DNA of 64,000 nt, from assembly GCF_014196635.1 (NCBI RefSeq), contig NZ_JACIEB010000006.1:1-64000 (forward strand), written 5' to 3'. Positions 14,371-51,610 of the stretch are shown piece after piece. Source of the DNA: Sphingobium fontiphilum (lineage in GTDB: Bacteria > Pseudomonadota > Alphaproteobacteria > Sphingomonadales > Sphingomonadaceae). The translations under genes and the position numbers were made by a program. Within the stretch, counting starts at the first letter, position 1. Every line of letters begins with the position of its first letter. The notes beneath the pieces are model-generated. The model made no database searches. It worked only from the letters and a program-made list of their open reading frames with translations, and was not told the DNA's origin.

Positions 14371-14444
14371 TGGAGCGGGTGAGGGGAATCGAACCCCCGT
14401 CGTCAGCTTGGGAAGCTGCTGCTCTACCATTGAGCTACACCCGC
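14371..14444 (-). tRNA. tRNA-Gly (anticodon CCC), CCA encoded
   Basis: The reverse complement folds as a cloverleaf. The acceptor GCGGGTG pairs with CACCCGC; the D-arm is GCTC/GAGC; the anticodon loop TTCCCAA gives anticodon CCC; the T-arm is GGGGG–TTCGATT–CCCCT; discriminator T is followed by an encoded CCA at 14,373–14,371. There is one mismatch at the base of the anticodon stem (G27/A43). Its 3' half is the presumed integration site of the island to the left, because the integrase remnant lies on that side. Confidence 0.93.
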
Positions 14445-45511: not shown

Positions 45512-47002
45512 CTATCCCTTGCGGAACAGCGCCCGGTCTTCCTTGCCGAACCCCCAGCGCCAGATGATGACCGCATAGGCGCCAAGGATAGAGAATATGC
45601 CGAAGACCAGTTGCACCCATTCATAATGGGGCGGCAGGGCCATGAAGCCCGCGCCGACAAGGGTCGCCGCCGCCGCCGCCCATAGCAGCGGCCAGCGCCA
45701 GGCGTTGATCGGCGCGCCCAGCAGGCGCGACAGAAGCCGCGCCTTCACAATCGCCCCCAGCCCCAGCGCCAGACACAGGCCCAGTGCGGGCGCAGCGGCC
45801 AGCACCATGTCGCCATAGCCCATTTTTTTCGCCGCCATGATCAGCGCGAAGCTGACCAGCGCCTGCGCCGCGATCATGCCGAGCGAGATCATCAGATTGC
45901 GGTGCCGGGCGATATAGACCAGCGCGGATTCGCTGACGACCGCGGTCGCCGCCACCACTTCGGCCAGCAGCAGGAAACCGAGCGCCAGCGCGCCGCCTGC
46001 GAATTGGGGGCCGACAAGGCCCATCACCGCCACCCCCGGAATGCCCAGCGCCAGCGCAATGCCCGCCTGCGCGGCGATGATCCAGAAGCCGACCTGGCTC
46101 ACCTGCCGCGCGATGGCGGCCAGATTGCCTTCGGCGAGGTTGCGGGTGATGACCGGGCCCAATATCGGGTCGAAACTCGTCTTGAGCTTTTGCGGCAGCG
46201 AAGCGACCTGCTGCGCCACATAATAGATGCCGACCAGCGCCGGGCTGACGAACAGGCCGAGGATCGCCATGTCCAGCCTGCGCGAACCCCATTCCACCCC
46301 GTCCGCCGCCGCCAGCGGCAGGTTGCGCCGCGCCAGCCGCCACAATCGCCCGGCATCGGGCCGCCAGCCATGGGGGACGCCATAATGACGCGCCATCGGG
46401 ATGATCGAGGCGGCCAGCGCCGCGACCATCGACAGGACATAGGAGAGGATCAGGCCGTCGCGGGTGGAATAGAACGCAAACACGAAGGCCCCGATGCTGA
46501 TCGCCCAGGGTTCGATGATGGAGCGCGCCCGCACCGTCGCGCCGATGTCATAGCGATAGGCGCAGGCGGCGAGCGCCACATCGGACCCGGCGACCGCGAT
46601 GACGATCAGGGCCAGAAGCCGGTCAAGCCCGTTGATGCCGCTGTTGGGGAACATCGCCTGCGGAAAGGCGATCAGCGCGCCCGCCGCCGCCAGCGACGCC
46701 AGCAGCGTGACGACCATGGCGTCGGTCACCACATGATTATGGGGCCGCTGCGTCTGCGCCAGCGCCCCGGCCAGCCCGCGTTTCAACCCCAGCGTCGCAA
46801 GCTGCGCGGCAAACTCCACCACCAGCACGGCATAGGCGAACCTGCCCAGCGTGTCCGCGCCATACCAGCGCCCGGCAATGAACAGGAAAGGCAGACGCGC
46901 GGCCAGACGCAGCAGGAAACCGAACACATTGGCCCGCCCGCCACGCGCCAGAGCGGCGATGTCGCGGCCATCGTCGTCCACAGTCTGGGCGTCAGTCGCC
47001 AA
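45512..47002 (-). CDS. Wzx-like polysaccharide flippase / MATE-fold membrane protein
   Basis: 496 residues with about 12–14 hydrophobic segments. The N-terminal RGGRANVFGFLLRLAARLPFL and the mid-protein KTSFDPILGPVITR-like segments are typical of lipopolysaccharide O-unit flippases (MOP superfamily). It starts at TTG 47002 with GGAGAG upstream; GTG 46978 is an alternative. It may move lipid-linked sugars across the inner membrane. No glycosyltransferase cluster is nearby. The 69-base gap to gpsA is free of genes. Confidence 0.8.
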   Translation of the reverse strand: MATDAQTVDDDGRDIAALARGGRANVFGFLLRLAARLPFLFIAGRWYGADTLGRFAYAVLVVEFAAQLATLGLKRGLAGALAQTQRPHNHVVTDAMVVTLLASLAAAGALIAFPQAMFPNSGINGLDRLLALIVIAVAGSDVALAACAYRYDIGATVRARSIIEPWAISIGAFVFAFYSTRDGLILSYVLSMVAALAASIIPMARHYGVPHGWRPDAGRLWRLARRNLPLAAADGVEWGSRRLDMAILGLFVSPALVGIYYVAQQVASLPQKLKTSFDPILGPVITRNLAEGNLAAIARQVSQVGFWIIAAQAGIALALGIPGVAVMGLVGPQFAGGALALGFLLLAEVVAATAVVSESALVYIARHRNLMISLGMIAAQALVSFALIMAAKKMGYGDMVLAAAPALGLCLALGLGAIVKARLLSRLLGAPINAWRWPLLWAAAAATLVGAGFMALPPHYEWVQLVFGIFSILGAYAVIIWRWGFGKEDRALFRKG

Positions 47003-47071: not shown

Positions 47072-48043
47072 TTATTCGGGCCGCAACGGACGCGACAGCA
47101 GCGCGCCGACAATATCGGCCACCGGCGCGCGTCCTTCCAGCAGGGCGCAGACGGCTTCGGCCACCGGCATTTCCACGCCCGCCGACCGCGCCGCGTCGCG
47201 CAGCACCGGCGCGGTGAAGGCCCCTTCGGCCACGGTGCGGCGATTGGCCAGCAGATCGACTGCCGACCGCCCCTCGCCCAGGCCCTTGCCCAGCGAGAAG
47301 TTGCGCGAATTGGTCGAGGAGCAAGTCAACACCAGATCGCCCAGCCCGGAAAGGCCGCTGAGCGTCTCGGCCCGCGCCCCGCGCGCCAGGCCGAAGCGCG
47401 TCATTTCGGCAAAGCCCCGGCTGATGAGCGAGGCGCGGGCATTGAGACCCAGCCCCGCCCCCTCGGCAATGCCGCAGGCGATGGCCAGCACATTCTTGAC
47501 CGCGCCGCCGATTTCCGCGCCGATCACATCGTCGCTGACATAGGGGCGGAATGCCGGGCGGGCGATACGCGCGGCCAGCGTGCGCGCCAGATCCGCGTCG
47601 GAGCAGGCGAGCGTGATCGCCGTGGGCAGGCCCTGCGCCACTTCATGCGCGAAGGTGGGGCCAGACAGCACCGCCAGCGGCGCGTCTGGGCGGACTTCGG
47701 CCACCACTTCCGACATCAGCAACCCCGTGCCCGCCTCGATCCCCTTGGAACAGAGGACCAGGGGGGTGCACGCGGGCGTCTGCGCCACCATGGCGCGCAG
47801 ATGCTGGGCCGGGCAAACGATCAGCAGCATGTCGCAATCGGCCATGTCCGCCATCACGCCGGTAGCGATGATCGTCGGATTGAGCGCGACGCCGGGCAGA
47901 TAAGCGCTATTGGCATGGTCGCCGTTGATCGCGGCCACGACATCGGCCTCCAGCGCCCACAGGCGCACCGCTTCCCCGTCCATGCTGAGCGTATGGGCCA
48001 GCGCCGTGCCCCATGCGCCCGCGCCGATTACGCCAGCCTTCAT
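47072..48043 (-). CDS. gpsA: Glycerol-3-phosphate dehydrogenase [NAD(P)+] GpsA
   Basis: 323 residues. The Rossmann motif [13 protein letters not shown] is at the N-terminus, and the catalytic block [20 protein letters not shown] and [12 protein letters not shown] identify GpsA. It reduces dihydroxyacetone phosphate to sn-glycerol 3-phosphate for phospholipid synthesis. Its start overlaps the stop of tsaD (ATGA). Confidence 0.95.
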
Positions 48044-49074
48044 GCCTTCACTCCCGCTCCGCGCGCCTTTTCAGCGTCCGGGTCCAGCGGCCATCGCGGT
48101 CGCGCCGGAACGCTCATATCGTCGACCAGCCCGACGGCATAGCGTTCCGCCCCCGCCCAGGCGATCATCGCCGCATTGTCGGTGCACAGCCACAGCGGCG
48201 GCGCGACGAAGGGGACGCCATGGTCGGCGGCGAGGTTCTCCAATGCCGCGCGGATCGCCTGGTTGGCGGCGACGCCCCCCGCCACGACCAGCGCGCCCGC
48301 GGGATGCCCGGCCGACAATTGCCGCCGGGTGCGGTCGACCAGACAGTCGATCACCGCCTGCTGAAAGGAGGCGGCGATGTCGTCCGCGCCGTATTGGCCG
48401 GACTGCGCCGCACGCATGACTGCGCTTTTGAGGCCCGCGAAGGAAAAATGCGGTTCGGCCGTGCCGACCAGCGGGCGCGGCAGGGGCACCGCCTTCGCGT
48501 TGCCCCGCGCCGCCGCTTGCTCGACTCTGGGACCGCCGGGATAGCCAAGGCCCAAAAGCTTGGCGGTCTTGTCGAACGCCTCGCCCGCCGCATCGTCGAT
48601 GGTGGTGGCAAGCCGCGCATAGTCGCCCGGCCCCCGCACATGGAGCAACTGGCAATGGCCGCCCGAAACGAGCAACAGCATGTAGGGGAATTGGAGCGAG
48701 CGGTCGGCCAGCCGCGGCGAGAGCGCATGGCCCTCCAGATGATTGACCGCGATCAGCGGCTTGCCGGTCGCATGGGCGAGCGCCTTGCCGGTGACAAGGC
48801 CGACCATCACTCCGCCGATCAGGCCGGGGCCAGCGGTCGCGGCGATCACGTCGACATCGTCCAGCGTCATCTTTGCGTCGGCCAGCGCGGCTTCGATCAA
48901 CGGCGTCAGCACCTCGACATGAGCGCGCGCCGCCAGTTCGGGCACGACGCCGCCATAGGGGCGATGTTCTTCCTCCTGCGTGGCGAGCCGGTGCGCCAAA
49001 ATCCGCCCGTCGGCGCTCACCAGGGCCGCCGCGGTTTCATCGCAACTCGATTCAAGGCCAAGGATGATGGTCAT
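48040..49074 (-). CDS. tsaD: tRNA N6-threonylcarbamoyladenosine transferase TsaD
   Basis: 344 residues. [14 protein letters not shown] at the start, the metal-binding [10 protein letters not shown] (His pair about 110/114), SGGHCQL and GGVAANQ are diagnostic. TsaD completes t6A37 on tRNAs reading ANN codons. AGAGGGA lies upstream of its ATG, and part of that ribosome-binding site is inside the 24-bp palindrome shared with hemC. It leads an operon with gpsA. Confidence 0.95.
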
Positions 49075-49084
49075 TGCCGCTTCC

Positions 49085-49108
49085 CTCTAATGCCCATGGG
49101 CATTAGAG
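49085..49108. promoter_or_regulatory. 24-bp perfect palindrome centred between tsaD and hemC
   Basis: CTCTAATGCCCA is followed directly by its reverse complement TGGGCATTAGAG. Ten bases separate each end from the adjacent start codon (tsaD 49074, hemC 49119), so its centre coincides with the centre of the 44-bp gap. Each arm end carries an AGAG that overlaps the ribosome-binding site of one gene. It could be a dimer-binding operator or a leader hairpin that hides ribosome-binding sites. The function is inferred. Confidence 0.6.
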
Positions 49109-49118
49109 CAAGCCGCAT

Positions 49119-50045
49119 ATGACGATAGCCGACCGACCGTTGCGCCTTGGCACCAGAGGCTCCCCGCTTGCACTGGCGCAGGCGACCATGACCGCGCAGG
49201 CGCTGTGCGCCGCTCATGGCTGGGCGCAGGGCGCCATAGAGATCGTGATCGTCCAGACCAGCGGCGACCGGATTCAGGACCGGGCGCTGGCCGAAATCGG
49301 GGGCAAGGCGCTGTGGACGAAGGAGCTGGACCGGGTTCTGTTGGAAGGTGAAATCGACTTTGCCGTCCATTCGATGAAGGATGTCGAAACCATCCGCCCC
49401 GACGCCATCACCATCGCCGCCATGCTGCCCCGCGCCGATGTGCGCGACCGGCTGATCGGCGCGGAAAGCCTGTCCGCCCTGCCGCCCGGCGCGGTGGTGG
49501 GCACCAGTTCCCCCCGGCGCAGCGCGCAGGTGCGCCGCGCACGGCCTGACCTGTCGATCACCCTGTTTCGCGGCAATGTCGCCACGCGACTTGGCAAGCT
49601 GGACGCGGGCGAAGCCGACGCAACGCTGCTGGCGGCGGCGGGGCTGGACCGGCTGGGCCAGGGCGACATCGGCTGCGCCATTCCGGTCGACGCCATGCTC
49701 CCCGCCCCCGCGCAGGGCGCGGTGGGGATAGAGACGCTGACCGAAAACCGGGCGATGCGCGACCTGCTCGCCGCGATCAGCCATGCCGACACCTTCGATT
49801 GCGTGATGGCGGAACGCGCGGTGCTGCGTGGGCTGAACGGCACATGCCATTCGCCCATCGCCGCACTGGCGCAAATCGCGGGCGAAGCGATACGGATCGA
49901 GGCGGAGATATTGTCCGCCGATGGCGCGGAATGCGTGCGCGGCGAGGCCGGTATCGCACGCGGCGACGACGCCGGGGCGATGGCGCTGGGCCGGTCGCTG
50001 CTCGATCGCGCCAGCCCGGCGCTGCGGGCGCTGTTCGAGGCGTGA
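49119..50045 (+). CDS. hemC: Porphobilinogen deaminase HemC
   Basis: 308 residues. Diagnostic segments: LGTRGSPLALAQA, IVQTSGDRI, KELDRVLLEGEIDFAVHSMKD, and GTSSPRRSAQVRRARPD (one family of conserved Arg residues). Cys in LNGTCHSPIAALA holds the dipyrromethane cofactor. It makes hydroxymethylbilane in heme synthesis. The stop overlaps the hemD start (GTGA). Confidence 0.95.
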   Translation: MTIADRPLRLGTRGSPLALAQATMTAQALCAAHGWAQGAIEIVIVQTSGDRIQDRALAEIGGKALWTKELDRVLLEGEIDFAVHSMKDVETIRPDAITIAAMLPRADVRDRLIGAESLSALPPGAVVGTSSPRRSAQVRRARPDLSITLFRGNVATRLGKLDAGEADATLLAAAGLDRLGQGDIGCAIPVDAMLPAPAQGAVGIETLTENRAMRDLLAAISHADTFDCVMAERAVLRGLNGTCHSPIAALAQIAGEAIRIEAEILSADGAECVRGEAGIARGDDAGAMALGRSLLDRASPALRALFEA

Positions 50046-50713
50046 GCCGACTGTTGGTGCTCCGGCCCGAACCGGGCGCCGGCGCCACCATGCGCCGCGC
50101 GGCCGCAATGGGGATCGAGGCCCTGAGCTATCCTCTCTTCGCCATCGATCCGGTTGCCTGGACGCCGCCTGATCCCGCCGGCTTCGACGCCCTGATGCTG
50201 ACCAGCGCCAACGCCGTGCGCATGGCGGGCGACGCTCTTGCTCAATATCGCAATCTTCCCGCCTATGCCGTGGGCCAGTGCACCGCCGATGCGCTGGCGC
50301 AGGCGGGTTTCGACCGGATCGAGACGGGCGAAGCCGACGGCAGCGCGGTCGCGCGGAAAATGGCCGAGGACGGCCGCCGCCATGTGCTGCACCTTCGGGG
50401 ACAGGACGGCGCCCCGATTGACCCCGGACCGCTGCGAATCACGCCAGCCATCGTCTATGCCGCCTGCGAACGAGGCGATGCGACCGGGCTGGCCGCGATG
50501 CTCCAACCGGGCATAACGGCCCTTGTCCATTCGGCGCGCGCCGGGCGCAGGCTGGCGGCGCTAACGGACGATCGCCAGCGCCCCGGCATTTCCATCGTGG
50601 CGATCAGCGCGGCGGCGCAAACGGCCTGCGGCGAAGGCTGGCGCGCCATCGCCGCGGCGGCGCGACCCACGGACGAAGCGATGCTGGCCCTCGCCCGCCG
50701 TTTGTGCGATTGA
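50042..50713 (+). CDS. hemD: Uroporphyrinogen-III synthase HemD
   Basis: 223 residues from GTG 50042, which overlaps the hemC stop. The weakly conserved HemD fold is seen in LLVLRPEPGAGATMRRA, FDALMLTSANAVR, YAVGQCTADALAQAGF and the late IVAISAAAQTA. It closes hydroxymethylbilane into uroporphyrinogen III. Identification relies on synteny with hemC plus these motifs. Confidence 0.9.
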   Translation: MSRLLVLRPEPGAGATMRRAAAMGIEALSYPLFAIDPVAWTPPDPAGFDALMLTSANAVRMAGDALAQYRNLPAYAVGQCTADALAQAGFDRIETGEADGSAVARKMAEDGRRHVLHLRGQDGAPIDPGPLRITPAIVYAACERGDATGLAAMLQPGITALVHSARAGRRLAALTDDRQRPGISIVAISAAAQTACGEGWRAIAAAARPTDEAMLALARRLCD

Positions 50714-50722
50714 AGTCCACGC

Positions 50723-51610
50723 ATGGACGAAACAGCCACCACGGACAACAGCCCGCCGCCCGCGCCCATTCCCCCGGCCCGCGCCCGGCCCCGTTCGCTT
50801 ATTCGCTCGCTGGGCCTGCCGATTCTGGGCTTTGCCCTGGGGGTCGGCCTGACCCTCTGGGCGCTGCCGCAGTTGGAACGTCTCTGGCAGTCGCAGCCCG
50901 CGCCCCTCACTCCCGCCGCGACGACTCAACAGACGCTGCCCATGGTCGCCAGCCCGGGCGCGGCGCGTCCGGCCGCCATACCCGACCAGATGCTCGACGC
51001 GCGGGTGCAGCAAATGGAGGAAAGGCTGACCCGAATCACGGTGGAGGCGCAGGGCGCATCCGCCAACGCCGCCCGGGCGGAAGGGCTGCTCGTCGCCTTC
51101 GCCGCTCGCCGTGCGCTCGATAGCGGCGCGCCGCTCGGCTATGTCGAGGGGCAGTTGCGCCTGCGCTTTGGCCAGGCTCAGCCCCGCGCCGTCGCCACCA
51201 TCATCAACGCCTCGCGCCAGCCGTTGACCCTTGTCGACCTGCGCGGCGGATTGCTGGACATAGCGGAAGGGCTGACCGCTGCGGCCGAGCGCGACTGGTG
51301 GAGCGCCATGGAACAAGAGGCGAAGGCGCTTGTCACCTTCCGCCGATCGACAACGCCTTCGCCCCGGCCGCAGGCCGCGCTGGATCGCGCCTTGCGCTAT
51401 ATCGACGCTGGTCGCGTGTCCGCCGCGCTGGCGGAAGTGGACGCGATGCCCGGAAAGGGGGTCGCCGCCCGTTGGGTGCAATCGGCCCGCCGTTATCTCG
51501 ACGCGCGCCGGGCGCTCGACCTCATCGAAACCGCCGCCATATTGGAACCGCGCCAGTTGCGCGCATCCGACGGGGCGACCGTGCAGACCACTTCACCACT
51601 GGCACCCTAA
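50723..51610 (+). CDS. Mitofilin/HemX-like membrane-anchored protein
   Basis: 295 residues. A Pro-rich cytosolic start is followed by one membrane helix (SLGLPILGFALGVGLTLWAL), then a Pro/Ala linker, a short coiled coil (QMEERLTRITVEAQ) and a helical domain. Proteins of this layout (COG4223, mitofilin-related) often follow hemD in alphaproteobacteria. Nine bases separate it from hemD. It probably sits in the inner membrane facing the periplasm; function uncertain. Confidence 0.7.
   Translation: MDETATTDNSPPPAPIPPARARPRSLIRSLGLPILGFALGVGLTLWALPQLERLWQSQPAPLTPAATTQQTLPMVASPGAARPAAIPDQMLDARVQQMEERLTRITVEAQGASANAARAEGLLVAFAARRALDSGAPLGYVEGQLRLRFGQAQPRAVATIINASRQPLTLVDLRGGLLDIAEGLTAAAERDWWSAMEQEAKALVTFRRSTTPSPRPQAALDRALRYIDAGRVSAALAEVDAMPGKGVAARWVQSARRYLDARRALDLIETAAILEPRQLRASDGATVQTTSPLAP

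Follow-up and report, generated by a model that had tools for sequence, protein, structure and literature searches.

A perfect palindrome between the divergent tsaD and hemC genes of Sphingobium fontiphilum as a candidate trace of two overlapping sigma-A promoters

Results

A perfect palindrome occupies the center of the tsaD–hemC gap

The short gap that separates the divergent tsaD and hemC genes of Sphingobium fontiphilum contains a perfect 24-bp palindrome, which on balance we read as the trace of two overlapping, divergent sigma-A core promoters. Comparison with related loci revealed conserved boxes at a fixed 17-bp spacing, a variable center between them and no second copy of the site beyond control levels. 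The window – the 64,000 nucleotides analyzed here – is the first 64 kb of its contig, in a genome of 3.41 Mb. The locus is organized as follows:

48040 to 49074, minus strand: tsaD (NCBIfam TIGR03723, 411.9 bits against a cut-off of 296.1)
49119 to 50045, plus strand: hemC (NCBIfam TIGR00212, 307.3 bits against a cut-off of 164)
49075 to 49118, no strand: 44-bp gap between the divergent tsaD and hemC, from the ORF coordinates
49085 to 49108, no strand: palindrome CTCTAATGCCCATGGGCATTAGAG, the longest perfect palindrome in 464 kb of the genome
49093 to 49100, no strand: variable center of the palindrome, within both putative promoter spacers, from genus column frequencies

As the initial annotation had reported, the palindrome is identical to its own reverse complement and lies exactly at the middle of the gap, with 10 bp on either side (10 + 24 + 10); a sequence check confirmed both points. 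The second-longest perfect palindromes measure 18 bp in the 64-kb window and 20 bp across the 464 kb of genomic sequence examined. Base composition predicts 0.011 palindromes of 24 bp per window, 0.59 per 3.41-Mb genome and 4e-6 per 44-bp gap; on these expectations, the palindrome as a whole is not a chance occurrence.

Downstream of hemC, an ORF at 50105–50710 (plus strand) matched uroporphyrinogen-III synthase models below their cut-off (best score 68.5 bits against 223) and may encode a divergent HemD-like protein. Two long ORFs nearby, at 50723–51610 (plus strand) and 45512–47002 (minus strand), matched no NCBIfam family at an E value of 0.001.

The arms are conserved in Sphingobium and the center drifts

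We examined 179 loci, made up of 30 (the window's own included), 29, 40 and 80 named loci. A TsaD motif was present upstream of hemC in 164 of these, which gave 144 distinct sequences; the 15 loci without the motif were dropped. HemC is 70–78% identical to its counterparts in relatives titled Sphingobium. Anchoring on CTTCC aligned 40 of the 41 distinct genus sequences without gaps, L056 being the exception, and CTTCC.TCTA occurs in 40 of 41, a count that partly reflects the anchor itself.

Across the 40 aligned genus sequences, TCTA (49086–49089) and TAG (49104–49106) are invariant, and each column of the right-arm box TTAGAGCAAGC (49103–49113) is 93–100% conserved. All 40 carry the left TA as well as TTCCNT, in which the TT of a TTGNNN -35 element is kept and its G is not, and CAA – TTG on the minus strand – is retained in 37. 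Between the arms, the majority base at positions 49093–49100 reaches a frequency of just 0.50–0.80 per column, except at 49098, where G stands at 0.95. The number of complementary pairs per sequence ranges from 4 to 12 of 12, with 8 or 9 in 32 of the 40 sequences and 12 in one; that one, the sole perfectly symmetric sequence, is this genome. Conservation among relatives, on which the initial annotation had staked its interpretation, was therefore found for the arms but not for perfect symmetry.

The symmetric middle is probably incidental, a spacer that matches by luck, because genus column frequencies predict 0.94 sequences in 40 with all five central pairs matching and one was observed. Central pairing in the 40 Sphingobium-type sequences likewise equals the permutation level (2.77 against 2.74 of 5 pairs). 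The arms hardly vary in this set, which makes arm permutation uninformative there.

Symmetry can also grow by quasipalindrome correction, that is, template switching between imperfect arms. Under this account the symmetry itself would have no role, only the promoter parts would, which makes it compatible with overlapping promoters; we nonetheless consider such an origin improbable. It would fit the occurrence of perfect symmetry in 1 of 40 genus sequences and the A found at 49085 in 36 of 40, where this genome has C. That C is, however, present in 4 of 40 sequences (this genome and three others, including L013 and L123), and L013 and L123 are adjacent to this genome in tree order, so the C may be old. 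Roughly one perfect center in 40 is expected anyway.

Spacing between the boxes is fixed in much of the family

We searched the 144 distinct family sequences for the two boxes with separate patterns that left the spacing free: TTYYM no more than 15 nt from the tsaD start on the left, and NTASNRCMA on the right. Both boxes were found in 94 sequences, and 50 failed the separate patterns. From the hexamer that begins with the first TT to the right TA, the spacer is 17 bp in 93 of the 94 and 39 bp in the remaining one; outside Sphingobium it is 17 bp in 56 of 57. The first TT was chosen after the spacer had been counted from the last TT, which gave 15 bp in 3 sequences, 16 in 12, 17 in 78 and 39 in the remaining one; additional T's in the box account for the difference between the counts.

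Distances outside the boxes vary. The left box lies 3–7 nt from the tsaD ATG in the 94 sequences, and the right box lies 4–13 nt from the first downstream ATG in 92, the pick having failed in the other two. Indels thus appear to be tolerated outside the boxes and hardly at all between them. Fixed spacing between boxes combined with variable outer distances is how a -35/-10 pair behaves, though a fixed spacing would also be expected of two half-sites of one protein, so that spacing by itself does not decide against an operator.

The architecture has exceptions. As scored, it was failed by 44 of the 144 sequences; in some of these (e.g., L084, L093, L096, and L158), similar boxes seem to be visible by eye. 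Part of the family, with sequences of the TGAAC and TGCCAC types, has no left TA. Of 31 family representatives, 20 retain the left T and 25 the left A, which indicates that the putative tsaD promoter is not conserved family-wide. A second set, of 100 aligned sequences, was picked partly on TT and TA, which makes column counts circular there – unlike the set of 94, for which each box was searched with its own pattern.

Within 95 nt downstream of the TsaD motif, 24 of the 144 distinct sequences also contain a recurrent TTGTCGAA element, in many cases as CTTGTCGAAG. Its carriers, which include L147, L150, L153, and L175, have it between tsaD and hemC, and those that are named are mostly titled Sphingomonas.

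The boxes fit two back-to-back promoters

The candidate expression signals in the gap are listed below.

49081 to 49086, plus strand: putative hemC -35 element TTCCCT, followed by a 17-bp spacer to the right TA in 93 of 94 family sequences
49104 to 49109, plus strand: putative hemC -10 element TAGAGC, with TAG in 40 of 40 genus sequences; fits the Zymomonas sigma-A form TANNNN (PMC7566282)
49116, plus strand: predicted hemC transcription start, after a 6-nt discriminator and 3 nt before the ATG
49106 to 49111, minus strand: putative tsaD -35 element TTGCTC, with minus-strand TTG in 37 of 40 genus sequences
49084 to 49089, minus strand: putative tsaD -10 element TAGAGG, 16 bp from TTGCTC; left TA in 40 of 40 genus sequences, absent in part of the family
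49077, minus strand: predicted tsaD transcription start, 3 nt before the ATG; alternatively near 49093 should the right-arm TA work in both directions
49080 to 49087, minus strand: Shine-Dalgarno-like GAGGGAAG of tsaD, -6.3 kcal/mol, with 76% of 164 rough gene starts equal or weaker

In the arrangement we favor, RNA polymerase would read hemC from TTCCCT (49081–49086), a 17-bp spacer and TAGAGC (49104–49109), and would start about 3 nt before the ATG to produce a leaderless or nearly leaderless mRNA. It would read tsaD from TTGCTC (49111–49106, minus strand), 16 bp and TAGAGG (49089–49084, minus strand), again starting about 3 nt before the ATG. Each arm would provide the -10 element of one promoter and overlap the -35 element of the other, an overlap that would keep two polymerases from ever being on the site together, and the symmetric center would be spacer sequence that matches by accident in this genome. 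From the sequence comparisons we infer that the boxes act as promoter elements, where transcription starts, that the mRNAs are leaderless and that polymerases exclude each other.

The initial annotation had named overlap of promoters with the palindrome as one of two options, and our results agree with it: a sigma-A promoter for hemC is consistent with the two boxes and their 17-bp spacing, their mirror image fits one for tsaD, and the two -10 hexamers occupy exact mirror positions about the palindrome center. The hemC half of this proposal is the firmer. Its -10 element has the form TANNNN, with TA in all 40 aligned genus sequences, and its -35 and -10 elements are about 17 bp apart at a conserved spacing (15–17 bp in 93 of 94 sequences by the last TT); TTCCCT lacks the G of TTG, which we count against the promoter reading. 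On the tsaD side, the window contains TTGCTC-16-TAGAGG, which agrees with TTGNNN and TANNNN separated by 16–18 bp. Scans of 48900–49300 found no terminator and, under strict E. coli-type criteria, no promoter; the latter also counts against the promoter reading.

Zymomonas belongs to the same order as Sphingobium. In Zymomonas mobilis, sigma-A promoters consist of TTGNNN, a spacer of 17, TANNNN with no required final T and a discriminator of 6, and leaders of 5 nt or less count as leaderless (119 of 2,675 start-gene pairs; PMC7566282). The hemC promoter proposed here shares with these the TT, the 17-bp spacer and a TANNNN element without a required final T, and leaderless transcripts are known there (PMC7566282); it differs in having TTC in place of TTG, and its start is a predicted one.

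Twenty order-level relatives were viewed by eye, and a cleaner hemC promoter was seen in at least two, both of genus g16: TTGACC-17-TACCAG-7-ATG in L197 and TTGACC-17-TACCAC-7-GTG in L195. These near-consensus sequences suggest that a leaderless hemC may be old. A -10 form with a final C is known from Caulobacter. A text search found no hemC in the main text of one Caulobacter paper (PMC4287350), a literature search on leaderless Novosphingobium promoters and transcription start sites returned no match, and one for hemC together with tsaD returned a single paper, on EVE domains. Transcription start sites of Novosphingobium aromaticivorans are reported to have been mapped (PMC12710314).

Shine-Dalgarno strength and a shared -10 element

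The initial annotation had placed AGAG over both ribosome-binding sites. This holds on the tsaD side, where GAGGGAAG is strong (-6.3 kcal/mol), and does not on the hemC side, where the Shine-Dalgarno sequence is weak (-2.1 kcal/mol, with 22% of the 164 rough gene starts equal or weaker). Median values across 94 family sequences are -2.1 for hemC against -4.6 for tsaD. The weakness on the hemC side, in this genome and in the family, favors the predicted leaderless hemC start. Because a 3-nt leader would exclude the strong Shine-Dalgarno sequence of tsaD, transcription of this gene may start further upstream. Alternatively, since the 17-bp spacing is fixed, the comparisons suggest that the same bases may be kept as the hemC -35 element instead. 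A search for a TA peak upstream of weak-Shine-Dalgarno genes proved too noisy for use (57 weak against 73 strong genes, with uncertain starts).

The main rival to two separate promoters is a single -10 element used in both directions. Here the right-arm TA (49104–49105) would belong to a -10 element in either direction – TAGAGC in the case of hemC and TAATGC in that of tsaD – and the left arm would combine the hemC -35 element with the tsaD ribosome site. Starts would fall at about 49116 and 49093, and tsaD would have a 19-nt leader that includes its Shine-Dalgarno sequence. This arrangement, which we judge possible though unlikely, would make use of the strong tsaD Shine-Dalgarno sequence and would also work in sequences that lack the left TA. 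It offers no minus-strand TTG 16–18 bp upstream, however, and leaves unexplained why CAA (minus-strand TTG) is retained in 37 of 40 genus sequences.

The two arrangements also differ in the distance between their predicted divergent starts, 39 bp in our preferred reading and 23 bp with a shared -10 element. For E. coli bidirectional promoters, starts 18 bp apart are reported as most common, with 10 and 23 bp also common (PMC12825309), and a shared -10 element would thus fit that class. Like the tsaD–hemC gap, those promoters are pseudo-symmetric with divergent transcription, and binding of one polymerase blocks the other there; they have one shared -10 element, whereas our preferred reading gives each direction its own and sets the starts 39 bp apart (PMC12825309).

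Arm symmetry beyond Sphingobium, and the operator and hairpin alternatives

Arm symmetry extends outside the genus type. Among 60 sequences that are not of the Sphingobium type, the two arms agree at 3.80 of 7 pairs against 3.44 when shuffled (1/5000), and in 31 representatives less than 75% identical, 126 matches compare with 110 shuffled (1/5000). These representatives show their best symmetry at the palindrome center, where 46% of pairs are complementary against 17–37% at 12 other centers. Permutation of all 100 aligned sequences also gave a strong arm dyad signal (0/5000), inflated by relatedness. Two promoters would explain only part of this better-than-shuffled match. We read the signal as probable shared ancestry of two like elements, as opposed to strong pairing; because of it, an operator and a hairpin each retain a low probability.

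Operators of dimeric regulators between divergent genes typically combine an inverted repeat with fixed spacing. Both features are found here, and the initial annotation had proposed one dimeric regulator coupling t6A and heme synthesis through the palindrome. The 24-bp symmetry, the arms conserved at fixed spacing and a dyad that exceeds shuffles around one common center, in the 60 non-Sphingobium sequences and the 31 family representatives alike, would all suit an operator that controls tsaD and hemC jointly. Center symmetry within Sphingobium is nevertheless at the permutation level, and, unlike for known dimeric operators, the center is unconserved, no second site exceeded controls and no recognized regulator was found among the scanned ORFs. 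Taken together, we view joint control through an operator as rather improbable.

We searched for such second sites directly, the initial annotation having proposed to look for the same palindrome elsewhere in the genome. TCTAAT-N10-ATTAGA with no mismatch occurs in this genome only at the tsaD–hemC gap. Allowing up to two mismatches gave 7 matches here where the control gave 12, and allowing up to one gave 102 against 77 across 94 genus genomes, with any match in 81 of the 94 and exactly one in 62. Among the genomes in which matches were compared with hemC positions, the zero-mismatch match adjoins hemC in G006, G022, and G034. Among the matches listed, that of G203 sits far from its hemC, which shows that not all represent the tsaD–hemC site. 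The right-arm box TTAGAGCAAGC, searched in this genome on both strands with up to one mismatch, gave 9 matches, fewer than the 43 of its control. An NCBIfam scan of six ORFs, tsaD and hemC included, recognized no regulator, two of the six having no family. A dimeric operator is disfavored on these two grounds: the site neither recurs beyond controls nor adjoins a recognized regulator gene among the six ORFs, and the proposed coupling of t6A and heme synthesis went without support.

The initial annotation had further suggested an RNA hairpin that masks initiation; such a block on the translation of either gene, or of both, appears very unlikely. The whole gap, if transcribed, would fold at -22.6 kcal/mol (plus strand) or -25.8 kcal/mol (minus strand), with z near -5, and the corresponding sequence of the relative L005 also folds (-16.2, z -3.2; L018, whose locus was not oriented, was left out of this comparison). 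Any perfect DNA palindrome, however, will fold on both strands irrespective of its function, and the predicted starts leave this one outside both mRNAs. On a tree of 100 sequences built from at most the first 75 codons of tsaD, double changes on one branch occurred 8 times at the seven arm pairs – two of them fixed on one side by TA anchoring – against an expectation of 4.4; three of the eight left the bases complementary, two of these at a single pair. In favor of a hairpin, that pair was double-changed on the same branch twice with complementary outcomes both times, against 0.33 such branches expected. Center pairs in Sphingobium are at the permutation level. No Rfam element reached the gathering score at the palindrome; a tRNA at 14374–14444 gave the sole match anywhere in the window.

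Discussion

Overall, the interpretation offered in the initial annotation is borne out in part. Overlapping divergent sigma-A promoters are a known kind of arrangement, and the most likely meaning of the palindrome is fairly ordinary gene control. A more tentative idea, which we consider doubtful, is that only one polymerase fires at a time, so that each firing would express either tsaD (t6A) or hemC (heme) and not both; the gap would give rise to two leaderless housekeeping mRNAs, and much of the family would share this layout. This idea is weakened by findings in E. coli, where all five bidirectional promoters tested reportedly had basal activity too low for polymerases to compete (PMC12825309).

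The analysis provides a testable map of how a very short gap may drive two housekeeping genes in an alphaproteobacterium of high GC content, and it carries a warning: what looks like an operator, a perfect palindrome in a short gap, can be promoter anatomy plus luck. Should hemC mRNA be leaderless in much of the family, heme synthesis there would depend on leaderless translation.
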